In this document: piece after piece, positions 541-43,411 of the stretch | How positions within the stretch are numbered: position 1 is the stretch's first letter | Layout of the letters: each line of letters begins with the position of its first letter | Source of the DNA: Hysterangium stoloniferum | Taxonomy: Eukaryota; Basidiomycota; Agaricomycetes; Hysterangiales; Hysterangiaceae | NCBI GenBank assembly: GCA_015178975.1 | Contig: WHVD01000061.1 | Span: 124,001 to 188,000 of the forward strand | Direction of reading: 5' to 3' | DNA length: 64,000 nt | The notes under the pieces: model-generated | Database searches by the model: none | Told to the model about the DNA's origin: nothing | The model's input: only the letters and a program-made list of their open reading frames with translations | Program-made: the position numbers and the translations under genes

Positions 541-1103
541 CACAATTCATTGAATATGCAAAATTTTATGAAAAAGTCCTTATATTTTCAAGTGAGACTA
601 TTTCCTCTGGCTATGGCTACATGTTTTAGGAGTTTATATTTCATTATCCCAAAATTTCATCTTTAAGACTTGTATGCTCTTTTAAAATATGCACAAATGT
701 CATGGTTAAACAAGATTATCTGGGTTGTGACCTAATCTTTGGGATAAAATGCATTCTCTAGTATCTTTGTGACTTTTAAAATATCCACAAACATCATAGT
801 TAAACAAAATTATTTGGATTATGACTTAATCTTTGGGATAAGATGCATTCTCTTGTATATGTATATGCAAACTTTCAAATATACTGTAGTTCATATAATT
901 TAAATTTATTTGGTTTAGAAAGTTAACCAGAACTATCTGGCCAACCAATCCATGCTGTGGAATTTATCCCCAAAGGATAATCTATATGTTTGTTTGACTA
1001 GCTTTTGTCAGATACAAGATAAATATAAATATTTCCTTATTCTCCAGAATGTCATCTGATAGACTGAATTTGATTAAATATTAATTCTACAGCAAACAAT
1101 ATA
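531..1103 (+). repeat. AT-rich dispersed repeat H, copy 1
   Basis: A block of about 570 bp that recurs with high similarity at about 29290-29835. It begins with GGAGGATAGTCAC and ends near CAGCAAACAATAT. It contains two near-tandem internal segments (around 665-745 and 775-850), each with TTTGGGATAA followed by ATGCATTCTC. No terminal inverted repeat or convincing coding frame was seen. Here it interrupts the gypsy remnant between the chromodomain and the antisense-gene remnant. Confidence 0.65.
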
Positions 1104-1251
1104 TCAACTCCTTTACCTCCTCTTCCTGCTTGCAGCTTAATTCTTCCATCCTCTGTTGTTTCAGTTTAAGTTCTTCGACCTTCAACATTTCAGGAGTTTC
1201 AATGTCAGAAGATTTGGGTGTTTTGGTAAAAAAAGGAAGATAGATCAACAT
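1104..1251 (-). pseudogene. N-terminal remnant of the antisense accessory gene of the gypsy family (copy G1)
   Basis: Read on the minus strand from an ATG at 1251, the frame stays open for about 49 codons. It aligns with the N-terminus of the antisense gene at 32079, sharing a P-[LF]-F-x-[TK]-T-P block, then K-V-x-E-L, then RMEEL and a glutamate-rich coiled-coil start. The remaining protein, including the cysteine cluster, is absent because repeat H replaces it. The nucleotide sequence is clearly diverged from the 32-kb copy yet the frame is kept, which suggests a different subfamily of the same element. Confidence 0.6.
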
Positions 1252-15488: not shown

Positions 15489-15621
15489 ATTTTTAAAGTT
15501 CAAAATGGGTCCTAGTCACATGACTTTGCTTATAAAGTTCAACAAAGTCATGTGACCACTCTTCCTCAATGTATATAAGATGAAAGCAACCAGTTGGAAT
15601 CCCACAATCATCCTACTCACA

Positions 15622-16638
15622 ATGAAAAAGCTCTCCTCTAGCCAAATCCAACATGTTCTTACTCTAATTGACTCTGGCATTTCTGGAGCTCAAATATGTT
15701 ACCAAACTCATCTCAGCAGTGCCACCATCAGTCATATTCACTCTGAGCATTGCCCTGACCTCCCCAAATGCTCTGGTGGCCATTCTACAAAGCTTACCAC
15801 AGCCAATATTGCCTATGCTAGAAGAATAATTTGCATGGGGAAGGTTGATAATGCCACACAGGCAACCAAGAAACTTATAGACATCATCAACACTCCTATT
15901 ACTTCCCAAACAGTGCGTCACCACCTCAAAACCATAGGCATGAGGGCTGTGGTAAAGAGAAAAAGGCCACTTCTCAAACCTCATCATCGGAAATTTCGAT
16001 TGGAGTTTGCAGAAAGGCATTTGGAATGGACCCTGGAGGACTGGAAGAGGGTCATATGGTCTGATGAGACTAAGATTAATAGGCTGGGATCAGATGGAAG
16101 GAAAAATGTGTGGAAAAATGTGGGTGAGGGGTTAAATGATAGGTTAGTAGAGGGAACAGTCAAGTTTGGAGGAGGAAACCTGATGATGTGGGGATGCATG
16201 GGCTGGGCTGGGGTTGGGTTTGCAACCAAAATTGATGGGAGGATGGATGCTGAGCTTTATGTGGAGATCCTGGATGATGAACTCCAGCAAACCCTCAAAT
16301 ATTACAACAAAACAGTGGCTGCCATTGTGTTTCAACAAGACAATGACCCCAAACACACCAGCAAAAAGGCCCAGAAATGGTTCACTGACTATGATGTTAC
16401 AGTCCTCAAGTGGCCTGCACAATCTCCTGACATGAATCCTATTGAACATCTGTGGAATCATGTCAAAAAGAAGCTGGGGGAGTATGAACAGCCTGCAAAT
16501 AGTGTTCATGAACTGTGGGAGAGGGTGCAGAAGGTGTGGGAAGAGATTCCAAAGGAGGAGTGTCAGAAGCTTATTGAGAGTATGCCTAGAAGACTTGCAG
16601 CAGTGATTAGAGCAAAGGGGGGCCATACTAAATACTAA
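15622..16638 (+). CDS. Tc1 transposase (DD34E-type), intact
   Basis: A single-exon frame; an upstream in-frame ATG at 15580 would add 14 residues, but MKKLSSSQIQ at 15622 is the natural start of the DNA-binding region. Order of parts: paired helix-turn-helix region (about residues 1-115, with VRHHLKTIGM), LEFAERHLEWTLEDWKRVIW, WSDETK with catalytic Asp 1, GGGNLMMWGCMGW, FQQDNDPKHTSKKAQKWF with Asp 2, and WPAQSPDMNPIEHLWNH with the Glu 34 residues further on. About 338 residues is normal for Tc1. It cuts and pastes its own element at TA sites. The frame on the opposite strand (16144-16626) is a shadow. Confidence 0.93.
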   Translation: MKKLSSSQIQHVLTLIDSGISGAQICYQTHLSSATISHIHSEHCPDLPKCSGGHSTKLTTANIAYARRIICMGKVDNATQATKKLIDIINTPITSQTVRHHLKTIGMRAVVKRKRPLLKPHHRKFRLEFAERHLEWTLEDWKRVIWSDETKINRLGSDGRKNVWKNVGEGLNDRLVEGTVKFGGGNLMMWGCMGWAGVGFATKIDGRMDAELYVEILDDELQQTLKYYNKTVAAIVFQQDNDPKHTSKKAQKWFTDYDVTVLKWPAQSPDMNPIEHLWNHVKKKLGEYEQPANSVHELWERVQKVWEEIPKEECQKLIESMPRRLAAVIRAKGGHTKY

Positions 16639-23261: not shown

Positions 23262-24920
23262 CCTAGTGCAAACGGAGTGGATGAGTCACGTGATAGGCGT
23301 TATTTCGCGAAAGTTCTATCCACTACTTCAGAAAAGCTGGTTCGTCTTGTACTACCTTGCAGATTGTACCAAGTCGCGTAGTTTTTGGAGTCCCAAGTCT
23401 ATTTGAAATGCCTAAATGTATGAGGAAAGGGTGTGGCTTAGAGTACGATGAACAAAATAATACAGAAACTTCTTGCCACTACCACAGTGGTGCCCCGGTA
23501 TGGAATTCCTTTCCAGATCCTAGAATAATTGCTTATAATGGTGTCAAGGTTTTTCACGAAGGTCTGAAAAGCTGGTCATGTTGCTCGGATGTTAACAGGC
23601 CAGTGCTTGACTTCGATTCATTCATGGCGATTCGTGTATGCCTAAATAAGTTACAACCGCTAATCCGTTCAAGCTGATTTACGACATAGGGTTGTACCAA
23701 TGGTCCGCATACCGAAGTGAAGCCCAAGGCCGAGCCACCTACATCTGGCGGCGTTAATACAGTATCCCGTGCAAAAGCTACTTCAAGCACCAGCGTGGAT
23801 GCAGATGTTCGTGAGACGCCAACAACCTCAGGACAAAATCAACTAAGCTCGACATTTACAATTATGAACCCACCTTTTAAACCTGAGCCCCCATTGCCTA
23901 TTCAAGATGAAGAAGACGACACGTCGATACCTGTTATCTTTGGGACGCCTTGTAAGAGACGCGGCTGCGGTGTCACATTTAATTCCGAGGAAGAGAGCCG
24001 GATAGGTGAAGGTGAGGGAACAGTATGCACGTATCATCCCTCTCAGGTGAGCCTGGCCGTATCGTTTATCAAGCTTGGAGCCACTAATATAAGGTAGCCA
24101 ATTTTTCGTGAGGGAAGCAAGGCATGCTTTATTTTATTTATTGAAGTGATACCCCCTCTGAAAGCCTAACTTTTTGCTTTAGGGATATTTATGTTGCAAG
24201 CGGCGAGTACTGGAATTCGACGAATTTTTGAAGATTAAAGGGTGCAAAACGGGAAAGCACCTGTTTGTATCAAAGCAGTCCAATACCGTGCGTGTATCTG
24301 CTAAGGCGATTGATAGATTATTGCCACGGCTGACCTATAGAAATAGTCGTCAGCCGAAGAATTAGTGACCTGCCGCATCGATCATTACCAAACGCCGTCA
24401 CAAGTACATGTTTCTGTTTTCGCCAAGCAAACGGATAAGGCAGCAAGCGTGATCCAACTAGAGGATTCTAAGGTGTGTTTCAGTGTCTATGAAGTTAGTG
24501 TCTGTCAATTTAAATTTACCCATTTATAAGGTTCATCTTGACTTGGTCATGCCCGCTTCGAAACGTTTCAAACGAACGCTAGACCTCTATGGCCCAATAA
24601 CTCCAGATGCTTCCAAGTACACATTTTTTGGGACAAAGGTATGAGCCATGCCGCTCATTGTGACGCTTATTGAATATATTATGTAGGTTGAGATCATCTT
24701 GGAAAAGGCTGATACGAGAAGTTGGCTGTTACTTGAAAAAACTGACCATTCCACGACGGGCTATGGGCTGACTTTCGGAGTAGGGGGTAGGACAGGTACA
24801 GTTGGGGGAAAGGAGCTTATACTGTCTGAAGAGAATAAACCCAGGACAAGCCAGCAACTTGATTCATAATCCATAGTTTATGTCAATCACCGGCTTTTCT
24901 ACTTGTTTAAATGGACCGAA
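23262..24920 (+). repeat. Left arm of a nearly perfect inverted duplication
   Basis: About 1.66 kb from CCTAGTGCAAACGG to ATGGACCGAA. It is repeated in reverse complement at 25185-26877 with very few differences: one base near the outer end, one intron base (extra C in GTATGCCTAAAT at about 23640), one silent T/C in the penultimate codon pair, and a 34-bp insertion in the right arm. Each arm holds a full CHORD-protein gene. The unique spacer is about 264 bp. Confidence 0.9.
23408..24869 (+). CDS. CHORD- and CS-domain co-chaperone, left copy
   Basis: CHORD proteins (CHP1, RAR1, melusin type) bind HSP90 and act with SGT1. From ATG 23408, CHORD 1 reads CMRKGCGLEYDEQ, CHYHSGAP, VFHEGLKSWSCC, DFDSFMAI, GCTNGPH. 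A 51-bp intron splits GAP|VFHEG; it has no stop and keeps frame if retained. CHORD 2 reads CKRRGCGVTF, CTYHPSQ, a 24-bp micro-exon PIFREGSK (24098-24121) followed by an apparent GC-AG intron, then GYLCCKRRVLEFDEF and GCKTGKH. The C-terminal CS/p23 domain has SVFAKQ, LDLVMPASKRFKR, FGTKVEIILEKAD and SWLLLEK. TAA is at 24867-24869. All frames join without stops, so both copies look functional. A proline/serine linker separates the two CHORDs. Confidence 0.9.
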
Positions 24921-25184: not shown

Positions 25185-26877
25185 GTTCGGTCCATTTAAA
25201 CAAGTAGAAAAGCCGGTGATTGACATAAACTATGGATTATGAGTCAAGTTGCTGGCTTGTCCTGGGTTTATTCTCTTCAGACAGTATAAGCTCCTTTCCC
25301 CCAACTGTACCTGTCCTACCCCCTACTCCGAAAGTCAGCCCATAGCCCGTCGTGGAATGGTCAGTTTTTTCAAGTAACAGCCAACTTCTCGTATCAGCCT
25401 TTTCCAAGATGATCTCAACCTACATAATATATTCAATAAGCGTCACAATGAGCGGCATGGCTCATACCTTTGTCCCAAAAAATGTGTACTTGGAAGCATC
25501 TGGAGTTATTGGGCCATAGAGGTCTAGCGTTCGTTTGAAACGTTTCGAAGCGGGCATGACCAAGTCAAGATGAACCTTATAAATGGGTAAATTTAAATTG
25601 ACAGACACTAACTTCATAGACACTGAAACACACCTTAGAATCCTCTAGTTGGATCACGCTTGCTGCCTTATCCGTTTGCTTGGCGAAAACAGAAACATGT
25701 ACTTGTGACGGCGTTTGGTAATGATCGATGCGGCAGGTCACTAATTCTTCGGCTGACGACTATTTCTATAGGTCAGCCGTGGCAATAATCTATCAATCGC
25801 CTTAGCAGATACACGCACGGTATTGGACTGCTTTGATACAAACAGGTGCTTTCCCGTTTTGCACCCTTTAATCTTCAAAAATTCGTCGAATTCCAGTACT
25901 CGCCGCTTGCAACATAAATATCCCTAAAGCAAAAAGTTAGGCTTTCAGAGGGGGTATCACTTCAATAAATAAAATAAAGCATGCCTTGCTTCCCTCACGA
26001 AAAATTGGCTACCTTATATTAGTGGCTCCAAGCTTGATAAACGATACGGCCAGGCTCACCTGAGAGGGATGATACGTGCATACTGTTCCCTCACCTTCAC
26101 CTATCCGGCTCTCTTCCTCGGAATTAAATGTGACACCGCAGCCGCGTCTCTTACAAGGCGTCCCAAAGATAACAGGTATCGACGTGTCGTCTTCTTCATC
26201 TTGAATAGGCAATGGGGGCTCAGGTTTAAAAGGTGGGTTCATAATTGTAAATGTCGAGCTTAGTTGATTTTGTCCTGAGGTTGTTGGCGTCTCACGAACA
26301 TCTGCATCCACGCTGGTGCTTGAAGTAGCTTTTGCACGGGATACTGTATTAACGCCGCCAGATGTAGGTGGCTCGGCCTTGGGCTTCACTTCGGTATGCG
26401 GACCATTGGTACAACCCTATGTCGTAAATCAGCTTGAACGGATTAGCGGTTGTAACTTATTTAGCATACACGAATCGCCATGAATGAATCGAAGTCAAGC
26501 ACTGGCCTGTTAACATCCGAGCAACATGACCAGCTTTTCAGACCTTCGTGAAAAACCTTGACACCATTATAAGCAATTATTCTAGGATCTGGAAAGGAAT
26601 TCCATACCGGGGCACCACTGTGGTAGTGGCAAGAAGTTTCTGTATTATTTTGTTCATCGTACTCTAAGCCACACCCTTTCCTCATACATTTAGGCATTTC
26701 AAATAGACTTGGGACTCCAAAAACTACGCGACTTGGTACAATCTGCAAGGTAGTACAAGACGAACCAGCTTTTCTGAAGTAGTGGATAGAACTTTCGCGA
26801 AATAACGCCTATCACGTGACTCATCCTTTTTTTTTTGTTATATTTGTATGTGACTCATCCACTCCGTTTACACTAGG
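25185..26877 (-). repeat. Right arm of the inverted duplication
   Basis: Reverse-complement partner of 23262-24920. It carries an extra 34 bp near its outer end: 23 bp rich in T (26827-26849) flanked by two copies of GTGACTCATCC (26816-26826 and 26850-26860). This lies upstream of the right gene copy, in what should be its promoter. Confidence 0.9.
25237..26697 (-). CDS. CHORD- and CS-domain co-chaperone, right copy
   Basis: Start ATG at 26697, stop at 25237-25239. The protein appears identical to the left copy: the only coding difference noticed is GAT versus GAC, both Asp, before the final Ser. One intron base is missing relative to the left copy; it lies just inside the donor of the intron after FMAIR and should not change the product. 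The same micro-exon and GC-AG intron are present. The copies are transcribed toward each other, so their 3' ends face the spacer. Only the left copy has an uninterrupted upstream GGATGAGTCAC region. Confidence 0.9.
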
Positions 26878-27198: not shown

Positions 27199-27310
27199 GT
27201 GTTAAGATCTAAACAAGAGGGCTCTATCCAGCAATAGAGATTGTACTAGTTGAGAGGTCTGACTCTATAACACAGGTGGAGCTTGGCTTCAACTTACAGT
27301 ATGTATGTAT
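27199..27310 (-). mobile_element. LTR fragment, family C
   Basis: It begins GTTAAGATCTAA and contains CAATAGAGATTGTACTAGTTG, then AGGTCTGACTCTATAAC and GGCTTCAACTTACAG, as in the LTR at 13096. It stops abruptly where the AT-rich ORF stretch begins. Confidence 0.65.
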
Positions 27311-27366
27311 TGCACCTCATGTCATTAAATACTTCTGCATTAAGGGCTCAAGATCTACTTTTACAA

Positions 27367-27600
27367 GGAATGGAGATTGATACTAACAATCACAACCATC
27401 CATTCCAAAAAAAGAGAAAATTATCAGAGTACCAAGAGTATGAAGTTGAAAGCATATTAAAACATAGAGAAGTTAATGGTAAGATGCAATATTTTGTAAA
27501 ATGGAAAAGATACTTCCACAAAACTTGGGAACCAGAAGAGAGCTTCAATACTTGAGGATGCATTGATGATTATTGGAATATGGAGCAGGACTAATTTTAA
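27367..27600 (+). pseudogene. Chromodomain fragment, probably the end of an integrase
   Basis: From MEIDTNNHNHPF the frame runs through a basic KKRKLSE and a chromodomain: YEVESILKHREVNGKMQ, then YFVKWKRYFHKTWEPEESF. A TGA follows, after which DDYWNMEQD can be read in another frame, matching the usual acidic end of such domains. The sequence is unlike the chromodomain of the gypsy elements in this window. Chromodomains end the integrases of chromoviruses and of Maverick/Polinton elements; the rest of the integrase is missing here. A longer ORF starts upstream at 27283 inside the LTR fragment, and that start is probably chance. Confidence 0.65.
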
Positions 27601-27662: not shown

Positions 27663-28172
27663 CTATTCTATGTTTTCATCATCTACTATTATTCCAAAAC
27701 TTCTTAATGTTTGTGCTTCTTCTTTAGTAAGTAATCTTGAATCAAATGTAACATCTATTACTCTAAATACTTCATCTTCTTTAGATCTTAGTATTGTGGT
27801 ATCTGTTTCTAACTTTAATTGGGAACTAGTACAATAAACTAGTTTTTCCCAATCTTCAGGTATTCCTTCCAGGTCACTACATGGTTTCCATTCTAGAGAT
27901 TTTCCTTTATGATCTTTAAAGGTCAATGTGTTTTCTTCCTTCTTATTTGTTTGTGTCTTTAAATTACTGTATTCAAGTGGTTTTCTAATAGTTATCACTT
28001 CTAAACCATGTTTGTCACAAAAACTTTGCATGATTCTTCTTATTTTGGAATGTTTTAACTTTGGAGCCTCTTCTAGCAGTGTTGTAGCCATATTAGATGC
28101 CAATGAATGGACTAAGTCATCTATTAAAGAGTGACTATTCACCATCTTATTTTGTATAGGCTTATCTTCCAT
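27663..28172 (-). CDS. Unknown 169-residue protein in an AT-rich island
   Basis: A single uninterrupted frame starting MEDKPIQNKM and ending FGIIVDDENIE. It is acidic and lysine-rich with no signal peptide or membrane segment. Visible stretches are SLIDDLVHSLASNMATTLLE (possible helix) and VFRVIDVTFDSRLLTKEEAQ. No family was recognised. Codon use is strongly AT-biased, unlike the host genes. It is convergent with the chromodomain frame and divergent from the ORF at 28380, with a 207-bp AT-rich space between the two starts. Confidence 0.5.
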   Translation of the reverse strand: MEDKPIQNKMVNSHSLIDDLVHSLASNMATTLLEEAPKLKHSKIRRIMQSFCDKHGLEVITIRKPLEYSNLKTQTNKKEENTLTFKDHKGKSLEWKPCSDLEGIPEDWEKLVYCTSSQLKLETDTTILRSKEDEVFRVIDVTFDSRLLTKEEAQTLRSFGIIVDDENIE

Positions 28173-30185: not shown

Positions 30186-31361
30186 TTGGTGACAAAAGCT
30201 CAGATTTACACCAAAATAGACCTTAAACACACCTATCATTTGGTCTGAATTGCTAAAGGTGATGAATGGAAGACTGCTTTCCATACCTGCTATGGATCCT
30301 TCAAATAGTTGATTATGCCATTTGGCCTTACCAATGCTCCCTCCACTTTTCAATGTTTTGTTAATGATATATTTTCTGACATGCTTGATGTATGCATTAT
30401 ATGTAGTCTATTTGGACAACATTTGGTATTTCCCGAAGATCCTGCTCTTCACAACAAGCAGGTCCATGAGGTTTTCTGAAGACTCTGAAAAAACAGTCTT
30501 TTTGCTAATGGTGAAAGAAGCTATTTTGATATGGACTCTATTGAATATTTAGGTTTCACTATTGGGCCCAATGATCTCTGTATGGATGAAACCAAAGTTC
30601 AAGTTGTCTGTGATTGGCCTGAGCCATGGAAAGTTAAGGACATCCAGTCATTTTTAGATTTTACAAATTTCTACCAATGATTTATTTGGAATTATTTGGA
30701 TATTACAATACCACTCACTTGACTTACCTGTAAATCACAACTATGTGTTTTTGATGAAAAATCCCATTCCACATTCCAGACTTTAAAAATGCCTTTACTT
30801 CCATCCTGATTCTTTCTCATTGGAAATCTGATGTTCCAATTATGCAATTGCCACAATTCTTTCCATTCAAGATTCCAATGGCAAAATTCACCCAGTCACA
30901 TTTCTTTCTCAGACACTTTTAATTTCCAAACTCAATTACGATATTCATGATAAGGAACTTTTGGCAATCCCCAAGGCTTTCAAACATTGGTAGCACTATC
31001 TTGAAGGTTCTGCAATTCCCATTGACTTCATCACCAATCACAAAAACCTGGAATATTTTTCAACTACTAAACTTTTGACCTATTGGAAAGCCTGGTGGTC
31101 TGAATTTCTTTCCACTTTCAATATGATTATCTGTTTCTGACCTGGACATCTTGGTGGAAAACTAGATGTCATGAGTCGATGATGGGACATCTATCCAAAA
31201 GAGGGGGAAAGTAACTATGCTGTTGCTAATCTGCATAACATGAAACCAGTTTTTACAACACAGCAACTTTCCACATCTATCTGAGTGACTTCTCTCTACT
31301 ATCCAATTATGCATAGTGTTATGACTATGGACATTGAGCAAGTATATCAAGACATCCTTTC

Positions 31362-31894
31362 TGTTAAGTGCCGTGTCGGGGACTTATTCCAGAACTATCG
31401 GAAAGTCACCGGGAAGTCGGGAACTATCGGATAGGGTCAGGACGTCGGCTTCAGCTTATGTGCTGCACCTCTACGCAAATGCTCAAAGTCCTTAATTTCA
31501 GAGGTGAGACTTACAATGGAAGATACGGATATTCAGAGTTCTGAAGAGTTCCGAATATCGAGCGTACAGAAAGATGGAGAAGGAATAAGAAACTAAGTCA
31601 ATATTAGATCTAAGGTAAAGTACAAATTCGTGGAAGTCAACTCGTTATTGTACTACAAACTAAGACCATAATAAGATGGAAATGGAAATGTTCTTAAAAC
31701 GGAAATACAATAAGACATATTAGGGAGACAATATTCCGAAATGGGAATACAACAAACAAATGAGTGAATACTTGTCAACGGACAAATTACCAAATGCGGA
31801 ACAAGGGAAGAACGTAGATGATACGGTAACTATGATATTCTGTAGTCGGAGATCGGAAGTCGGATATTGAAACATCTGGGAACGGGTCGTAACA
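31362..31894 (-). mobile_element. 3' LTR of gypsy element F
   Basis: On the plus strand it runs from TGTTAAGTGCCGTGTCGG to GGGTCGTAACA. The shared motif GGCTTCAGCTTATGTGCTGC is at 31444-31463. Because the antisense gene at 32079 reads away from this LTR, any antisense promoter activity of the LTR would drive it. Confidence 0.9.
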
Positions 31895-31908
31895 GTACCC
31901 CCCTGTTA
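31895..31908 (-). other. Polypurine tract of gypsy element F
   Basis: The minus strand reads CTAACAGGGGGGTAC directly before the 3' LTR start TGTTACGACC. This is the expected place for the plus-strand DNA primer. The same GGGGGTAC tract abuts the LTR of G2 at 43594 and a similar one that of G1 at 1433. Confidence 0.7.
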
Positions 31909-32078
31909 GGCCGAAATCCCATAGAGGCGATTAGGTACTGAGTGATTGAAGCGACGGTTGATTATTATGTGTCGTGAAATTTATGCAATTCTGGAGGTGA
32001 GAGTTTCAGCTGATGTTCTGAGTATAAAAACCTCCAAATATTCGAATTAACGTTTTTGTTTCTTCATCTACAACTTGT

Positions 32079-33183
32079 ATGTCAATACGTCGGCCACTGT
32101 TCATCACTACCCCGGAAGATTCAGGTGCCGAAATTGCTGTTCTACAAAAAATGTCGAAGGTCACAGAACTTCAACAAAAACGACGAATGATGGAGGAGTT
32201 GAAGCGACGACAGGAGGAGGAGGAGAAATCGTTGATGCAGGAGTTGAAAGATGCGGAAGAGGTGGAAAAACGGGAGTTGGAGCGGGCGAAGGTGGAGGCT
32301 CAGAAAAGGAAGGAAGAGGTGGAAAGGTTACAGTGGGAGTCAGAAGCGGCGAAAAAACGTGAGGAGATAAGGGAAGGAAAGGTAAGTGTTATCCATAAAT
32401 TCTGTGGTTTCAACTGATAACTATTGGGTACAGCGAAAAGCCGTGGAGGTGGAGGTAGAGGGAGAGGCTGGACCTTCAAGTCCTAAAGTAAGTGCATCTA
32501 CAAAAGGACCGATAATTGATTAACTTCCGAAACAGAAGCCAAAGGTCAAGGCTCCGGAACGGATGGAAGTGGTCCATGAAAATCTGTGTTATCGATGTTC
32601 CATACGGAGTATGACGTGTTGGAAACAGAAGGTAAAATGGGGCGGAACTTGCTATCCCTGCACGGTTCTTAAACTTCCGTGCACTCTCACCTCGAAAAGG
32701 GTTCCAAAAGGTGAGAAGCCTCAGAGAACTAACGACGCGGAAAGTTCGGGAGCTGCCAAAACTGCGGAAACTGAGGTACCAAAAATGGACAGTACAGGCA
32801 TGGAGCTCCTCAAGGACACCGTTGACGCATTAGTCTTTATTGGGATGGAAGTCATGAAGATGCGGGATACTCTAGATCACCATAATGAGATCCAGGAAAA
32901 AGGTTTCTGTTCATTGGTCCGAAATTTCTGGAGACAAAACGAATTCCTGGAGAAGGTAATGGTTAGCATCGGTGTGATCGCAGTTTCCAAGAGATTTTCC
33001 GATAAGGCAAGGGAACAGCCTAACGATCCGTTGGTGGAATATGTCGAAAAGAGATGGGAGTCAGGGAAAGGGCCGGAAAGTGAAGATGAAGAGGTACAGG
33101 ATATGGTGGAGAGTGCCGAGATTGTGGATGATATGGGAGTGGAAATGGAAGGAGGATTTGGGGTGTCAGAGACTTTAAAATAG
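32079..33183 (+). CDS. Antisense accessory gene of a Ty3/gypsy element: coiled-coil plus Zn(II)2Cys6-like protein
   Basis: Three exons (32079-32381, 32434-32487, 32536-33183) with GTAAGT donors and CAG acceptors give a 334-residue open frame. It runs opposite to gag-pol, between the chromodomain stop and the 3' LTR. Residues about 25-105 are charged and rich in Glu/Lys/Arg, a likely coiled coil (QQKRRMMEELKRRQEEEEK and more). Cysteines 137, 140, 147, 158, 161 and 168 have spacing C-x2-C-x6-C-x10-C-x2-C-x6-C, exactly that allowed for the fungal Zn(II)2Cys6 binuclear cluster (CYRCSIRSMTC ... CYPCTVLKLPC). A Ser/Glu-rich linker, a helical part (GMEVMKMRDTLDHHNEIQEK) and an acidic C-terminus follow. 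DNA or RNA binding is inferred, not shown. Its frame is open although gag and pol carry stops. Relatives in G2 and G1 support a real gene. Confidence 0.8.
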
Positions 33184-33279
33184 ATGAAAATAAATTTGAC
33201 TTGTATGATTTCAAAAACGAGCGTGATATCGGAAATAGCGGAAGTGTCGGAAACTGAAACAGAAAGAAAAACAGAAGAG

Positions 33280-36200
33280 TCAGAGTGATGATAAAGGTCT
33301 GGGTTTACTTGGATAAGCTGTGTGGAAATCAGTGACAATTTCCATAGTGTGTCTGAGTTCCATGGCCAATATCCATGAAGTTTCCTCGTCGGTACCTTCA
33401 TAACCTGCCCATTTGAATAAATAGAGCAATTTACAAGCACGTCGGCGATTGTCGATTTTAGAATCCAAAATTTTGGAAACTTCAAATTTGGGTTCTCCGT
33501 CAATAATGACCGGAGGGGATGGAGGTTGAATACGTTCCAGGATTTTGTCAGGAACACAGGGTTCTAACATGGAAACGTGGAAAATGGGATGAACTGCTCG
33601 CATACTATCGGGAAGTCGGAGAGTCTATGAGAGTGAACCGGCTTGTGCTATAATTTCAAAAGGGCCTAAGAATTTCTCAGTGAGTTTTTTAGAAGGTCGG
33701 GTAGTACGGAAGAATTGAGCTTTTACAAAAACCTGATCACCGATTTTAAAATTAGGAGGTGGGATCCTGTTTTTGTCCGCAGAATGTTGATAATATTCCT
33801 GTGTGGAAGAAATAGCTTTCCGAAGTTCTTGATGTAATTCGTTGAGGTCGGTAATAAATTCTTGAGCACGGACAGAAGCCAAATCTCGTTTGGGATGTAC
33901 AGTGAGATTCGGATTATAGCCTTTGTTGGTGAAAAAAGGAGATACGCCGGTAGTTGCATTCGGAGAGTTATTGTAGGCGAATTCCACGATTGGGAGAAGG
34001 GATTTCCAGTTGTCCTGTTGATAATTGCAATAGATGCGGAGGTATTGTTCCAATGTTTGATTTACGTGTTCCGTTTGTCCATCACCTTCCAGGTGATATC
34101 CCAAGGTGAAGTGTAGTTTCATGTCGAGGGCTTTTCCTAAGGCCTGGAAGAAATGGGAGACGAACTTGGAGCCTCGATCGGAAGTTATGTGAGATGGAAC
34201 TCCGTGTTTGGAAAATATGTGAATAATGAAAAGTTCCGCTAATTGTAAGGACGTGATTGTATCATGAGTGGGTATGAAAATGCCTTGTTTTGAGAATTGA
34301 TCCACAACAACTAGAATGGATGTAAAGCCTTCAGAAGTCGGGAGTTGTTCGATAAAATCCATGGAAATTGAGTTCCAGGGTTTTTCTGGTATCGGGAGTT
34401 GCTTGAGAAGGCCGTACGGCTTATGCCTCTGGGTTTTGGAGTGTAAGCAGGTGGTGCATGACTTACAGAACTGGGTTACGAAATCTCGGAGGTTGGGCCA
34501 AGTGTATTCTCTACGGATTAAACCAAGAGTATTATTAATGCCGTAATGTCCGGAGATTGGATCATCGTGTTTATACTGAAGTACGTGGAGTCGGAGATTG
34601 TTGGAATCTGGAATGTAGATACATCCATCAAGATGGATAAAACCTTGAGAGTCTTGTGACCATCAGGGTTGGTCGGGATTATTGGGAACTTCTAGGTGTG
34701 GCTTGAGAGCCAGATCGGAAGTGAGTGTGGAAAGGATATCTTGATGTAATTGCTCAATGTCCATAATCATGATGCTACGCATAATTGGATAGTAGAGGAA
34801 AGTTGCTCGAATAGATGTGGAAAGTCGTTGTGTTGTAAAAACCGGTTTCAAGTTATGTGGATTAACAACAGCATAGTTACTTTCCCCCTCTTTAGGATAG
34901 ACATCCCATCGTCAAGTCATGGCATCTGGTTTTCCACCAAGACGTCCGGGTCGGAAATGGATAATCATGTTGAAAGTGGAAAGGAATTCAGACCAGCGGG
35001 TTAAAAGTTTAGTGGTAGAAAAATATTCGAGATTTTTGTGATCGGTAACAACGTCAACGGGAGTCGTGGAACCTTCGAGATAATGGCGCCAATGTTTGAA
35101 AGCTTCAAAAATTGCCAAAAGTTCCTTATCATGAACATCGTAGTTGAGTTCGGACACTTTCAGTGTCCGAGAAAGAAATGCGACCGGATGAATTTCACCG
35201 TCAAAATCTTGAATGGAAAGAATCGCGGCAATTGCATAATTGGAAGCATCGGTTTCCACAATAATCAGAACATCAGGTTTCCAATGGGAAAGAATCGGGG
35301 CAGAAGTGAAAGCATTTTTTAAAGTCTGGAAGGCAGAGTGGCATTTGTCGTCAAAGACCCATGGTTGAGTTTTACGGGTAAGACGAGTGAGCGGTACTGT
35401 AATATCTGAGTAGTTCCGAATAAAACAACGGTAAAAGTTGGCGAAACCTAAAAATGACTGAATATCCTTGACTTTCCATGGTTCGGGCCAGTCGTGGACA
35501 ACTTGAACCTTGGCTTCATCCATACGGAGACCATCAGGTCCGATAATGAAACCTAAGTATTCAATAGAATCCATGTCAAAGTAGCATTTTTTACTGTTGG
35601 CGAAAAGACCGTTTTTACAGAGTCTTCAGAAGACTTCACGGACCTGTTCATCGTGGAGAGTGGGATCCTCGGAAAATACCAAAATGTCATCCAAATAGAC
35701 TATGACACATACGTCAAGCATGTCAGAAAATATATCATTAACAAAACGTTGAAAAGCGGAAGGGGCATTGGTAAGGCCAAACGGCATAACCAACCATTCA
35801 AAGGATCCATAGCGAGTTCGAAAAGCAGTTTTCCATTTGTCACCCTCGGCAATTCGGACCAAGTGATAGGCATGTTTGAGGTCTATTTTGGTGTAGATTT
35901 GAGCTTTCCGTGGGGCATCGAGTAAATCAGTAATGAGTGGAAGTGGATACTTATCTTTCCGTGTGATGGAATTTAATCCTCTGAAATCGACACAGAGTCG
36001 AAGGGAGCCATCCTTCTTTCGGACGAAAAGGATGGGTGCTCCATACAGAGACTTTGAGGGATGGATAAAACCTATTGACAGATGTTCATCCAGGAACTCC
36101 CGAATAGACGAAAGTTCCGATTGGGATAATGGGTAAATAGGTCCTAGCGGAGGGTTTGAACCGGGCTCAATATCAATTTTTAAGTCGTAGGGCCTATGTG

Positions 36201-36953
36201 GTGCAAGCCTGTCAGCTTTTTGCTTACTGAAAATGTCCGCGAAATCATGGTATTTTTCGGGAACTCCTTCCAGGTCGGCTTTTAGCTCGGATAATTCTGG
36301 AGTCACAAAATGCCCAGATGCTTCATCAACTTTTAAGCTGATTGAAAAACACTGTGAGCCATCCAGTTTACTCACCCTAACAAATGCCGAAGCGTTGATG
36401 AGAGAGATTTTTGGAGGCACGGAGGTTTCGGTAGAAGCTGGAGGTGCTGTAGATGCCGAAAAGGCATTGGCCGGAAAAGACGCTGCAGGAGGAACCGAAG
36501 TGTCGGGAATCCAGAAATTAATACTGCCCAATACCCAGTCAATCAACGGATTATATCGGGTGAGCCAGTTGTATCCAAGAATTACCGAACAGCTAGAGTC
36601 CAACTGTGTTACGAAAAAAGTAACCGTCTGAGATGTTCCACAAGGGAACAGGATAGACATGTCACAGGCTTGGGTAATTGCCATATTGCTAGTGCCGTCA
36701 AACAAATGTAAGGAAATTGCGGGAACAGAATGGAGTTTCAGATTATGTTTCGTGGCAAAGATGGTATCTACAAAACAGTGTGTGGAGCTGGAATCTATCA
36801 GAGCTCGGAACACTAAATTTCCAAGAAAGTCAGGAATGAGTTTTACAAATAATGAATCGGGATTAGAGAGAGTGGACGTGTTGAGACGGATAACCTCGGA
36901 AACACGGAGAGAGTCAACGCAACCCTCTGTCCGTGCAGTTTCCGGAGGGTTGC
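33280..36953 (-). pseudogene. Ty3/gypsy pol (protease, RT, RNase H, integrase, chromodomain) with several stops
   Basis: Minus strand. The protease-like part has FRALIDSSSTHCFVD (the usual DSG is DSS here). RT has PYDLKIDIEPG, LYGAPILFVRKKDGSLR, MPFGLTNAPSAFQRFVND and VYLDDILVFS (active site YLDD). RNase H has VETDASNYAIAAIL and HDKELLAIFEAFKHWRHYL. Integrase has the zinc-binding region, MDFIEQLP and DQFSKQGIFIPTHD, SDRGSKFVS, and GYHLEGDGQTEHVNQTLEQY. The chromodomain has KLLYLFKWAGYEGTDEETSW before the stop at 33280-33282. In-frame stops occur near 35624, 34911, 34662 and 33624; at least the one at 34911 is a TGA consistent with CGA decay. Pol is in the -1 frame relative to gag. Confidence 0.93.
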
Positions 36954-38183
36954 TTACTCTTTTTTCGACTCTGTGGTGGGTTTTTCCTTGGACGTTGTAG
37001 TCGTAGTGGAAGTTGCCGCATGGGCCTTGGAAGAGTTAGATTTAATGGTACAGTCAGAAACCTTGTGTCCGCCTTTCCCGCAGAGAAGGCAGAGGTCATT
37101 GTCCATACGTCGTTGTTTCTCCTTCAGGGTGAGTTTACTGTCGGTACCCAACAAATGGGAAATGTCAGGTTTGTCAGAAGTTGACTGTTTTTCCTTGTTG
37201 GATTTCTTGTCTTTCTTCCGGTCGGAGGTTGATTTGCCAGTATTCGTGCCAGATTTGCCGGTGTTATTGCCTGAGTTGTTGCTGGAAGACTTGCTAGTCG
37301 ACACCTTGTTATTCTGAGAGCGTTCTGTCGGGTTCTCTCGAGAGACCTCGGCTTTTCGTTCCCAATAACGGGCATCGGATGTTTGAGCTTTAATCCACAT
37401 GAGTTGGAGAGTTTTCAGCTTCCCATCTTTGCAGATCTCGTCTTTAAGGTGTGATGGAAGTCCCATATAGAAATGGTGTCTGAGGGCGGAATCGTCCCAT
37501 CCACATCGTGCAGCGAGGGTATTGAACTTGACAAGATAATCGGAAACTCGTTGATTGTCCTTCATCTTGAGCGTCATTAATTCATTTTCCGCTTTGCCGG
37601 TTTGATCGTAAGGTTCAAAATTAGTTTCCAGTTCTTCTACAAAAGCGTCCCAGTCATCGAGCCATACGGGTGTCTCGTCGGATATTCCAGATAGTCCAGG
37701 TTCGAACCAATCTTGAGCGGTATCCTTGAGATAAGAGAGTGCAAAATTGACTTTTCAACTGTCAGATTTAAATGCAGAGGGTCAATCACAGAAACTGAAA
37801 TGGCATTGAAGAAGGAAATTCTTCAATTTTTTTGGATCCTTGCCGGTAAATGGTTCAGGTTCTTTGACTCCAGTGCGGGATGATTCTTTACTATCCTCAG
37901 CAGATTTCAAGTAGTCAGCAAATTTCACAATGGAGTTGATGAACAACATTTCAGTCGGTTCATTGGATGATTTCTTTTTCGATGTCTCCGGCTGATCTTC
38001 TGCTTCGTTGTTGGAAGTGTGGGGAACATTGGTATCCTTCATTACCTCGGTAACCTCCTCGGTAACTTCTTCGACTGAAGCTGATGTTGTCGGCTGAAAA
38101 GGGGTTTCGGGTTGAGTGGTGTAAAGTTGCAACGGGGATTGAAGTTGGGATGGTCCTTCGGCAGCTTTGTGTTTGGGACCCAT
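36954..38183 (-). pseudogene. Ty3/gypsy gag with zinc knuckle, two internal stops
   Basis: It starts MGPKHKAAEGPSQ at 38183; ATG 38192 is three codons upstream. The N-terminal part ends FTGKDPKKLKNFLLQCHFSF, then two TGA codons near 37782 and 37755. It resumes with YLKDTAQDWFEP, NFEPYDQTGKAENEL, MKDNQRVSDYLVKFNTLA and a nucleocapsid knuckle CLLCGKGGHKVSDC (C-x2-C-x4-H-x4-C). It ends ESKKE-TAA at 36954. Without the two stops it would be a normal chromovirus gag of about 400 residues. The tail has a run of six A just before the stop. Confidence 0.9.
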
Positions 38184-38204
38184 GATGAGCAAGTCGCAGA
38201 GTTG

Positions 38205-38217
38205 AGATCTGATATAC
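38205..38217 (-). other. Putative primer-binding site
   Basis: Directly after the 5' LTR end CTTAACA the minus strand reads GTATATCAGATC. Eight of the last nine bases match the TATCAGAGC core of the plant and fungal initiator-methionine tRNA priming site (TGGTATCAGAGC). It may be a mutated version of that site; self-priming was not excluded. Confidence 0.45.
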
Positions 38218-38761
38218 TGTTAAGTGCCGTGTCGGGGACTTATTCTGGAACTATCGGAAAGTCACCGGGAAGTCGGGAACTATCGGATAGGGTCAGGACG
38301 TCAGCTTCAGCTTATGTGCTGCACCTCTACGCAAATGCTCAAAGTCCTTAATTTCAGAGGTAAGACTTACAATGGAAGATACGGATATTCAGAGTTCCGA
38401 AGAGTTCCAAATATCGAGCGTACAGAAAGACAGGAGAAGGAATAAGAAACTAAGTCGATATCAGATCTAAGGTAAAGTACAAATTTGCAGAAACTAATAT
38501 AAGTCTACTCGTTATTGTACTACAAACTAAGACCATAATAAGACGGAAACGGAAATGTTCTTAAAACAGAAATACAATAAGACATATTAGGGAGACAATA
38601 TTCTGAATCGGGGATACAACAAACAAACGAGTGAATACTTGTCAATGGACAAATTACCAAATGTGGAACAAGGGAAGAATGCAGATGATACGGTAACTAT
38701 GATATTCCGTAGTCGGAGATCGGAAGTCGGATATTGAAACATCCGGGAATGGGTCGTAACA
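38218..38761 (-). mobile_element. 5' LTR of gypsy element F
   Basis: Plus-strand ends are TGTTAAGTGCCGTGTC and GGGTCGTAACA, 544 bp. It differs from the 3' LTR by scattered transitions (for example GACGTCAGC versus GACGTCGGC) and 11 extra bases in ACTAATATAAGTC. The motif CAGCTTATGTGCTG is at about 38309-38322. Confidence 0.9.
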
Positions 38762-40180
38762 CTTTCCACACTTACTGTACTTCCAACCCGGCTCATACAG
38801 TACCTAGAAGTTCCTGAAGATCCCGATCAACCCCAGTGGTCCCAAGACTCTCAAGGTTTCATCCGTCTCAATGGACATATTTACATTCCAGATTCCAACA
38901 ATCTCCAACTCCATGTACTTCAGTACAAACATGATTATCCAATCTCCAGACATTATGGCATTAATAATACTCTTGGATTAATCTGAAGAGAATATACTTG
39001 GCCCAACCTCTGAGATTTAGTAACCCAGTTCTGTAAGTCATGCACTACCTACTTATGCTCCAAATCCCAGAGAAATAAGCCATATGGCCTTCTCAAGCAA
39101 CCCCTGATATCAGAAAAACCTTGGAATTCAATTTCCATGGATTTTATTGAACAACTCCCATCTTCTGAAGGCTATACATCTATTCTCATTGTTATAGACT
39201 GATTCTCAAAACAAGGAATTTTGATATCCACTCATGATACAATTACATCCTTGCAACTACCAGAACTTTTCGTCATTCATGTATTTTCCAAACATGGTAT
39301 TCCATCCCATGTAACATCCAAGTTCATTTCCCCTTTCTTCAAGGCTCTCAGAAAAGCCCTTAATATGAAATTACACTTCACCTCAGGATATCATCTGGAA
39401 GGTGACAGACAGACAGATAGAATATGTCAACCAAACCCTGGAACAATACCTCTGCATTTATTGCAACTATCAACAGGACAATTGGAAATCCCTTCTTCCA
39501 CTCACAGAATTTGCTTACAATAACTCTCCAAATGCCACTACCAGCATCTCTCCCTTCTTTGCCAATAAAGGATACAATATTAATCTCACAGTTCATCCCA
39601 AATGAGATCTGGAATCCACTCGTGCTCAAGAATTTATTACTGATCTCAATGAGTTACATCAGGAACTTCAGAAAGCCATTTCTTCTGCCCAGGAACATTA
39701 CCAATGTTTCATGGATAAAAACAGAATCCTGCCTCCTAACTTAAGATTGGAGATCAGGTTTTTGTAAAAGCTCAATTCTTCTGAACTACCCAACATTCCA
39801 AGAAACTGGCTGAGAAATTCTTAGGTCCTTTCAAGATTATAGCACAAGCCAGCTCACTTTCCTGAACTCTCTGACTTCCCAATAGTCTGTAAGCAGTTCA
39901 TCCCATTTTCCACATTTCCATGTTAGAGCCTTGTGTTCCTAACAACATCCCAGAATGTAACCAACCTCCACCTCTGTTAGGGCAACACTAACAAGGCTAC
40001 CAAACACAAGATAAAACACAGAAATATGAAGTGAAGAGGGGATAGCTCAATGACAGGGGAGATCACACTTGTTTTAGTGGGATTCTTAAGAGATTGAAAC
40101 TGAGGCTAACTACTGTACATGTAAAGTATTTATACTATTGAGAGCATAGCATGATATCACAGTATCAGTTATACATCAGT

Positions 40181-42179: not shown

Positions 42180-43411
42180 TGTGCAAGTTAAAAATAAAAG
42201 ATACAATTAATTTAGCATTTCCAGTACTCCAAATCCCTCCTCCACTTCAGCTCCTATCTCATTGGCAACTTCCATCCCAAATTCTGCACTCTCCATCATT
42301 TCCTGCACCTCCCCATCTTCACTTTCCAGTCTTTCTCCCAACACCCACCTTTTCTCAACCATATCCACCAACAGATCATTTGGATCATCTTTTTCCTTTT
42401 CAGCCTACCTTTCAGAAACTGCAACAATACTGATGCTGACCATTTCCTTTTCCAAGAACTCATTTGTTTCCAGTTGTTCCAATTCAATGCCTGGAATCCT
42501 TTTTCTTGGACATCATTATGGCACTCTAAAGTTTCCCAAACCTTCATCAACTCCATCCCAATGAATACCATTGTGTTAACAGTATCCCTGAGGAGTCCAA
42601 CACTGGTATCATCACCCATGCTTGGCACTGCAGTTTCAATGGGCTTGGTCATTTCCAATGTTTCCAACAATCACTGTTTTTTCCACCCTCTCTGTTTTCT
42701 CCACTGTTTTGACCTTTTGAGCCTTTTTGCCTTTTGGAGTTCATTTGATGGTAAGAGTGCATGGAATTTTGTTCACTGCACAAGGGAAACAAGTTCTGCC
42801 CTATTTTACCTTCTTCCTCCAACAAGTTATGCCCCAGCTCGCACATCATTGACATAGGATTTCATGGGCAGTCTCCATTTGTTCCAGAGCCCTGGTCTTT
42901 TGTTTCTGTTTTGGATATTAGCCATACTCCAGAACGTTTACAAAAACTACTTACCTTTAGACTCAAAGCCCCAGCCTCTTCCTCCTCATCCACTTCATTG
43001 GCTTTCTGCTGTTATTTACCATTATCAGAGACACATGGACATTTACTGGTTCACTCACTTTTCCATCTTGTTTCTCTTTTAGCCTCTGTTCTTCTGCCTT
43101 GGCATCCTGCTGTCTCTTCTCCACCTCATCCCACAACCTCTGATCCTCCACTATTTTCTGAAGCCATTCTTTCCTATCTCCTCCATCTTTTTCTCTGCCT
43201 CAATATGCTCTAACTCCCATTTTTCTACCTCTTCCACCTCTCTCAACTCCCACATTAACTCTTTTGCCTCTTCCTCTTGTCGTCATCTTACCTTCACCAT
43301 CCTCTGACATTTTCATTGAAGTTCTTCTACCTTTGACATTTTGGCAGTTTTGGCAATCTTAGTTTCTGAACTTTCTGGAGTGGTGGTAAACAAAGGATGA
43401 TGAATGCACAT
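42180..43411 (-). pseudogene. Decayed antisense accessory gene in gypsy element G2
   Basis: On the minus strand from ATG 43411 the N-terminus reads M-x-I-H-H-P-L-F and TTTPESSETKIA, then KMSKVEELQ, aligning with the gene at 32079. Around 42740-42850 a second block gives C-x2-C-x6-C-x10-C-x2-C-x6-C again (ITCWRKKVK, TCFPC, IPCTLT). All six cysteines are kept although stops replace R or W at three nearby positions. The C-terminal part reads LLRDTVNTMVFIGMELMKV and VQEKGFQAL, parallel to the 32-kb protein. Stops and shifts make it non-functional. Confidence 0.75.

Follow-up and report, generated by a model that had tools for sequence, protein, structure and literature searches.

A spliced antisense gene with a putative zinc cluster in a Ty3/gypsy family of the basidiomycete Hysterangium stoloniferum

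Introduction

In a Ty3/gypsy element of Hysterangium stoloniferum, an ectomycorrhizal basidiomycete of the Phallomycetidae according to the available excerpt of PMC7550596, an open reading frame divided among three exons lies in the interval from pol to the 3' LTR, on the strand opposite to gag-pol. The question that this locus raises is whether such a frame is a gene in its own right, kept by the element for its protein, and, if it is, what that protein might do. A reading made from the DNA letters alone (hereafter the sequence-only reading) had proposed that the frame encodes the element's own zinc-cluster protein, perhaps a regulator of its LTR or a factor that serves targeting or escape from silencing. 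The analysis given here follows that proposal through the copies of the element in the host genome, the substitutions in the frame, the relatives of its protein and the comparable genes of other retroelements. The window, as the term is used below, is the whole stretch of DNA analysed, 64,000 nucleotides of contig WHVD01000061.1 (assembly GCA_015178975.1, positions 124,001 to 188,000 of the forward strand), and all coordinates are those of the window.

The element and its antisense gene

The element (Table 1) has the TG..CA LTR ends, the short target-site duplication (CTTTC, at 31357-31361 and 38762-38766) and the order of protease, reverse transcriptase, RNase H and integrase of a Ty3/gypsy chromovirus, the chromodomain being supplied by a sister copy, L046, in which it stands above the Pfam cut-off (the window's own pol copy is broken). 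In the window element itself the four pol domains are above the cut-off and gag is below it. The two LTRs show 28 differences over 533 aligned columns, that is, 94.7% identity with 11 gap columns (92.8% by BLAST, where gaps are counted), and 26 of the 28 differences are transitions. The element is nested in an older, decayed relative of opposite orientation, whose plus-strand pol pieces are inverted repeats of the younger pol. This older host has its own version of the antisense gene near 42 kb, which was considered as a gene of a different kind; it shares its layout, its intron ends and a TATA box with the younger gene, however, and is an old, decayed relative.

The three-exon frame of 334 residues described by the sequence-only reading was correct in its coordinates, number of exons and cysteine spacing, the joined exons amounting to 1005 nt (334 codons and a stop) around two GT..AG introns. 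Its placement, opposite in strand to gag-pol and bounded by pol and the 3' LTR, is likewise confirmed by the limits of the element. Upstream, GAGTATAAAAACCTCCAAATATT is located between the LTR end with its polypurine stretch and the ATG of the gene; the TATA box is inside the element and outside the LTR.

Table 1. Coordinates of the element, its antisense gene and related features in the window
Feature	Position	Strand	Remarks
Ty3/gypsy chromovirus, gag-pol minus-coded	31362..38761	-	basis: LTRs, target-site duplication, Pfam domains
3' LTR	31362..31894	-	533 nt
Polypurine stretch adjoining 3' LTR	31898..31903	-	CCCCCC on + strand
Putative TATA box of antisense gene	32023..32030	+	TATAAAAA, 56 nt before ATG
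Antisense gene	32079..33183	+	between pol and 3' LTR
Exon 1	32079..32381	+	N-terminus and charged coiled-coil-like region
Intron 1	32382..32433	+	GT..AG, 52 nt
Exon 2	32434..32487	+	start of lysine-rich stretch (nuclear-localisation look, by eye)
Intron 2	32488..32535	+	GT..AG, 48 nt
Exon 3	32536..33183	+	contains stop codon; codes for six-cysteine cluster, conserved block and acidic tail
Six-cysteine cluster	32587..32682	+	CX2CX6CX10CX2CX6C, residues 137-168
pol	33281..36813	-	ends, with integrase and chromodomain, near 33280; window copy has 4 in-frame stops
gag fragment	36954..37577	-	zinc-knuckle-like motif; Pfam matches below cut-off
5' LTR	38218..38761	-	544 nt
Decayed copy of antisense gene	42210..43411	-	in older host element (gag-pol on +)

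Several other features of the window were recorded. An N-terminal fragment of the antisense gene (1102-1251, minus strand) ends at the start of a high-copy repeat, for which there are 962 candidates in the genome, the best 40 being scored. At 27663-28172 (minus strand) a 169-residue open frame lies on the strand opposite to a chromodomain frame (27271-27552, plus strand; Pfam Chromo), a short way past its downstream end; it has 17 matches from 18 candidates in the host genome and could be one more antisense gene, unrelated to the first, in a different chromodomain element. An inverted repeat of about 1.6 kb (23279-24920 and 25186-26826; a spacer of 265 nt, and arms of 1279 and 363 nt that are both 100% complementary) is either a recent inverted duplication or an assembly artefact, and a 352-residue open frame at 15580-16638 (plus strand) has, by eye, the look of a Tc1/mariner transposase.

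Copies across the genome

A DNA search of the host genome (111 Mb) with the gene gave 366 candidates, the best 40 of which were scored and all matched, and a protein search, with the best 120 of 1079 candidates scored, gave at least 206 matches. Fifty copies (L001-L050, L001 being the window copy) were taken for comparison, 30 from the DNA search, best matches first, and 20 picked from the protein search with a bias to well-preserved ones. All 50 copies keep GT or AG at all four splice sites. The spliced frame is intact in 15, made up of 2 of the 30 from the DNA search and 13 of the 20 picked ones, and codes in these for 334-350 residues; 10 of the 50 have an open pol segment, and 8 have both pol and the antisense frame open (the segments differ in length). 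The sequence-only reading had drawn attention to a frame left open in a copy with a broken gag-pol, and this is indeed the state of the window copy, yet it is nothing special, as 2 intact frames in 30 are ordinary survivorship. The open frame says little about the window copy itself; the evidence for a gene is that of the family.

Upstream of the gene, TATAAA occurs within 205 nt of the start in 48 of the 49 copies with a usable 5' end, and it stands in register across 18 aligned upstream regions; in 17 of 18 copies inspected (the exception is L002) the LTR end and polypurine stretch are also found there. The conserved TATA box suggests a putative promoter belonging to the antisense gene.

The gene itself had served as the query for the 50 copies, a circular procedure, and a search with pol only was therefore made as well. 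Beside 36 of the best 40 of 1848 candidates there is a match to the gene in the expected orientation (by eye), directly adjacent in 34 and at about 0.8 kb in two (C511 and C3); at the other four places (C547, C533, C42 and C544) no gene is among the matches listed. Circular sampling is thereby rejected as the source of the family-wide presence, and the homologous antisense frames looked for in other copies are found both in the set of 50 and in the pol search. In other words, the antisense gene is present in most elements of the family, among the best 40 of 1848 pol candidates. It is also found in 20 more distant, mostly decayed relatives of the 42-kb gene, that gene included (L051-L070), which have about 63-73% identity to the window gene in most aligned pieces and which, counted by eye, keep each splice site in 18 or 19 of 20 cases and TATAAA in 15 of 20.

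As a separate observation, 2166 of the 3020 differences among seven representative copies (L001, L019, L031, L033, L042, L046 and L049; 21 pairs) are A-G or C-T, a transition excess which fits a methylation-type decay of the family.

Selection on the reading frame

The sequence-only reading had named a dN/dS near 1 across copies, in advance, as a mark against a gene. Estimated by the method of Nei and Gojobori for the 105 pairs among the 15 intact copies, dN/dS is below 1 in every pair, at 0.16-0.35 for pairs with dS above 0.25 and at 0.24-0.72 for pairs with dS below 0.1, the latter as expected of fresh, unselected changes. CpG decay as the cause of these low values is rejected by 600 neutral simulations (200 at each of the CpG weights 4, 20 and 40), which give mean dN/dS of 0.73, 0.62 and 0.60, respectively, with minima of 0.33-0.39; the highest observed values (0.33-0.35) touch the lower edge of this simulated null and most fall below it. 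Moreover, across the 21 pairs of the seven representatives, third codon positions differ some 1.5 to 4 times as often as first or second positions, and the introns diverge by 0.16-0.34 in 19 of the 21.

The other five frames of the joined coding sequence hold 4-20 stops each in the 15 copies, and in five pairs their dN/dS is 0.96-2.08, except for frame -1 (0.22-0.36), which is low because its third positions face those of the antisense gene. Coding on that opposite strand is rejected, there being 4-6 stops in frame -1 in each of the 15 copies. Nor is the constraint borrowed from an overlap with pol: in all 50 copies the pol C-terminus lies on the opposite strand past the antisense stop, with 85-103 nt between the two coding ends in 47 and more in three (L009, L010 and L027). 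The antisense gene is, then, almost certainly a real, selected and spliced protein gene, and the claim that the element carries such a gene as its own is well supported by the splice sites and by a dN/dS that, between the more divergent copies, is below the neutral means.

The protein and its cysteine cluster

The charged region noticed in the sequence-only reading is borne out by the window protein, residues 13-105 of which are 60% E, K, R or Q with 2 Pro or Gly, and which by this composition appear coil-like. It is followed by a lysine-rich stretch, GKRKAVEVEVEGEAGPSSPKKPKVKA, with a nuclear-localisation look (by eye), then by the six cysteines, and after these by a conserved block, IQEKGF..L..NF..QN.FLEK.MVSIGVI; the protein ends in an acidic tail, its final 39 residues including 13 D/E and 2 K/R. 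The six cysteines and the block WKQKVKWGGTCYPC show no variation among the 15 intact copies.

The assignment of the cluster to the Zn(II)2Cys6 class stands in part. Its spacing is that of the class, CX2CX6CX5-12CX2CX6-8C, a pattern which appeared in none of 200,000 shuffles of the window protein. With Pfam, however, the window protein and its exon 3 have no Zn_clus match at E up to 10, and of the 15 exon-3 proteins seven match Zn_clus below the cut-off (best E = 2), this being the sole family touched and its gathering score being reached by none. In GAL4-type clusters a basic run in the first cysteine loop contacts DNA. Such a run is absent between Cys 2 and Cys 3 of the antisense protein, where the alignments show, by eye, loops such as SIRSMT, SVRDIT and SERSII, and the basic residues are instead between Cys 3 and Cys 4 (WKQKVKWGGT). 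The six cysteines are best described as a putative zinc-binding site, Zn(II)2Cys6-like by its spacing, and they offer a tractable domain. As to other families, the window protein reaches no Pfam cut-off, its weak matches being to the coil-like part (best E = 0.02). Among solved structures, a PDB search with the single sequence gave two chance-level hits (E 0.79 and 1.5) and a search with a profile gave no relative.

A protein search with the single antisense sequence found no relative. With a profile, and the best 8000 candidates scored, the matches were P0001, P0002 and P0003 (the last over a short part only) and, in a second round, P0001, P0002 and P0004. P0001 is H. stoloniferum BU17DRAFT_62310, 100% identical over 146 of 146 residues to a place in the genome that holds the window, and, because it and P0003 and P0004 are all named H. 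stoloniferum, only P0002 is evidence of spread. This metagenomic protein of 227 residues, from a contig no longer than 7,663 bases, shares 41% identity with the window exon 3 and keeps all six cysteines at the same spacing; it too lacks a Zn_clus match, at E up to 1. Its best match in the H. stoloniferum genome is at 44-45%, among 150 places scored of 914 candidates, and it is therefore probably from another organism. A scan of viral contigs gave 36 pattern matches, none of which was confirmed. Agaricomycete proteomes presumably hold many unnamed coiled-coil, cysteine-cluster proteins, which may be of the same kind.

Exchange of blocks between element lineages

Comparison by blocks was made for 18 of the 50 copies, of which ten belong to the type of L031 (type 31) and five to that of L046 (type 46). 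Between the two types the pol segments differ by a mean of 0.038, against 0.047 (raised by an outlier, L034) and 0.023 within types 31 and 46, respectively, and the LTRs by 0.073 against 0.034 and 0.023. For the coil with the introns the corresponding figure is 0.206 (0.036 and 0.059 within types), and for exon 3 it is 0.202 (0.042 and 0.023). Along L031 and L046, in bins of 100 bases, the flanks are 0-9% divergent; between 32279 and 33078, a span of eight bins, six are at 15-31% and the other two at 5-7%. Since the introns diverge too, the pattern is one of replacement of DNA blocks and not of fast amino-acid change. In 12 pairs of type 31 with type 46, the antisense gene exceeds the pol segment in synonymous divergence by a factor of about 5 to 12, to which slower synonymous change in pol could contribute. 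One copy, L042, is a clear recombinant, though a single case: its coil is that of type 46 (0.98), the first part of its exon 3 that of type 31 (0.96), and its LTR is closer to that of type 46 (0.035) than to that of type 31 (0.059). By these comparisons the coil and zinc blocks seem to have been swapped between element lineages.

Such exchange supplies natural variants of the cluster and raises a testable question, namely whether the antisense protein recognises its own lineage. The protein could in this regard be an immunity-like specificity module, that is, an autoregulator that forms dimers and has a zinc cluster, and in which template switching between element lineages replaces the coil and the DNA-contact blocks, such that a newcomer escapes the control of the many resident copies, much as phages swap repressor modules. 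The idea draws on pol being about 4% apart where the coil and zinc blocks are about 20% apart, and on the mixture of types in L042, but its simplest form is argued against by that same copy, in which the type of the zinc block does not match that of the LTR; overall we think it distinctly improbable.

What the protein might do

The best explanation as a whole is that of a separately transcribed and spliced antisense gene whose product would be a nuclear, dimeric zinc protein acting in trans, most likely as a regulator. Read from the features set out above, this complete account seems to us about evenly poised between right and wrong, and the claim within it that the protein is a nuclear DNA-binding regulator is tentative, its probability lying a little short of even. 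The gene would be transcribed apart from the sense RNA and its transcript then spliced. The introns would survive retrotransposition, because packaging and copying concern RNA of the opposite strand, from which they are not removed; indeed, the antisense orientation makes possible a natural intron-bearing gene that is carried through an RNA intermediate. The protein would enter the nucleus, dimerise through its N-terminal coil, bind zinc through its six cysteines and act in trans, with nucleic acid of the element itself as its target, the acidic tail suggesting a transcriptional regulator. The putative separate promoter, the acidic tail and the likeness to plant and retroviral antisense genes, so far as the accessible text on these describes them, speak for a regulator rather than for a factor of replication or targeting. 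The regulator reading is weakened by the absence of the canonical Zn(II)2Cys6 DNA-contact residues, and the best explanation as a whole by the weak matches to Zn_clus, by a zinc-block type in L042 that is off its LTR type, by the want of a relative in the PDB, by the 35 of 50 copies whose frame is not intact and by the contact of the highest dN/dS values with the edge of the null.

Alternatively, the protein may be a factor for replication, nuclear import or the targeting of integration, travelling with the pre-integration complex or binding the RNA or cDNA of the element, which we judge unlikely although far from negligible. The lysine-rich stretch would suit this role, as would the basic residues between Cys 3 and Cys 4, which are not a canonical recognition loop, the departure of the L042 zinc block from its LTR type, and the accessory-factor roles proposed for plant antisense proteins in the available portion of PMC7264820 (section 7). 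A separate antisense promoter would be odd for a structural component, however, and the chromodomain of the family's pol could already serve targeting.

It is improbable that the antisense RNA matters and not the protein, by pairing with transcripts of pol or the LTR into double-stranded RNA that feeds or blocks silencing. The convergent layout, with its short interval between the coding ends in most copies, would favour such pairing, and double-stranded RNA roles are discussed for loci of this sort in the accessible parts of PMC7264820; a protein is nevertheless indicated by codon-level constraint, a single open frame, kept splice sites and the conservation of the six cysteines, and an RNA role could coexist with it.

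Returning to the protein, its origin as a captured host zinc-cluster gene that persists as a functionless passenger is very improbable. The spacing is like that of the fungal Zn(II)2Cys6 cluster, and fungal genes have introns of comparable shortness, but dN/dS is low between lineages and the gene is beside at least 36 of the best 40 pol matches. The protein matches listed, moreover, are hypothetical proteins of H. stoloniferum and a single metagenomic protein, from word-based searches which could miss a distant host gene. Finally, a chance frame with chance splice sites, suggested by the 28 of 30 DNA-search copies that are not intact and by the possibility that the window frame alone is luck, is refuted by the 50-copy comparison, with its uniform splice sites, low dN/dS, near-constant TATAAA and neutral simulations, and has a negligible probability.

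Comparison with known systems

Fungal Zn(II)2Cys6 factors are like the antisense protein in their cysteine spacing and in combining a coil-like region and an acidic tail in one protein, and the likeness ends at the Pfam cut-off and at the basic recognition loop, which the antisense protein lacks. Its coil is N-terminal to the cluster, which we take to be a departure from the usual order in such factors.

HBZ of HTLV-1 is the product of a spliced antisense gene at the 3' end of the provirus, a nuclear coiled-coil protein of the bZIP class which regulates that provirus. The likeness to the H. stoloniferum gene would be one of way of working, with no homology claimed. The antisense promoter of HTLV is in the 3' LTR, whereas the TATA box of the H. 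stoloniferum gene is inside the element. The HTLV antisense genes are mentioned, in the accessible text, by both PMC11963269 and PMC7264820.

The sequence-only reading held antisense genes in Ty3/gypsy elements to be rare, a view weakened by several plant families and by the fungal element Boty, all of which, in the parts of the literature available, have them; an antisense gene at the site between pol and the 3' LTR is not new. The plant genes, known as aORF-3R, include Grande GENE23, RIRE2, Retand ORF4/TRP28 and PvRetro13 ORF2 (available parts of PMC7264820 and PMC11963269), and the function of antisense genes of LTR retrotransposons was called unknown in the accessible text of the 2020 review (PMC7264820). 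The H. stoloniferum gene has the place, strand, presence in most copies and conserved coding capacity of an aORF-3R, and some of the plant products are, as far as the excerpts go, nuclear or predicted to bind DNA. Grande has, in the same excerpts, an antisense promoter of its own, to which the conserved TATA box and putative promoter described here may be compared. The H. stoloniferum gene differs from the plant genes in its fungal host, its six-cysteine cluster, its two conserved introns, its conserved TATA box and the lack of a TRP28 match, PF04195 not being among the Pfam matches at E up to 10 for the window protein and the exon-3 set.

Within the fungi, no basidiomycete element with an antisense gene was found in the available portions of open-licence full-text literature; PMC4101180, considered as a precedent, was rejected, its accessible text being about other matters. 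The ascomycete precedent is Boty of Botrytis cinerea, a Ty3/gypsy element with an additional antisense gene, brtn (Zhao et al. 2011, Virology 417:248, as cited in the available parts of PMC7264820, PMC8365987 and PMC4227169), which the review places between pol and the 3' LTR (PMC7264820, accessible text). By description only, brtn and the H. stoloniferum gene are alike in belonging to a fungal Ty3/gypsy element, in their antisense orientation and in their position between pol and the 3' LTR, the one in an ascomycete and the other in a basidiomycete, and the family described here adds, for a fungus, strong codon-level and splice-site evidence that an antisense gene of this kind encodes a selected protein.
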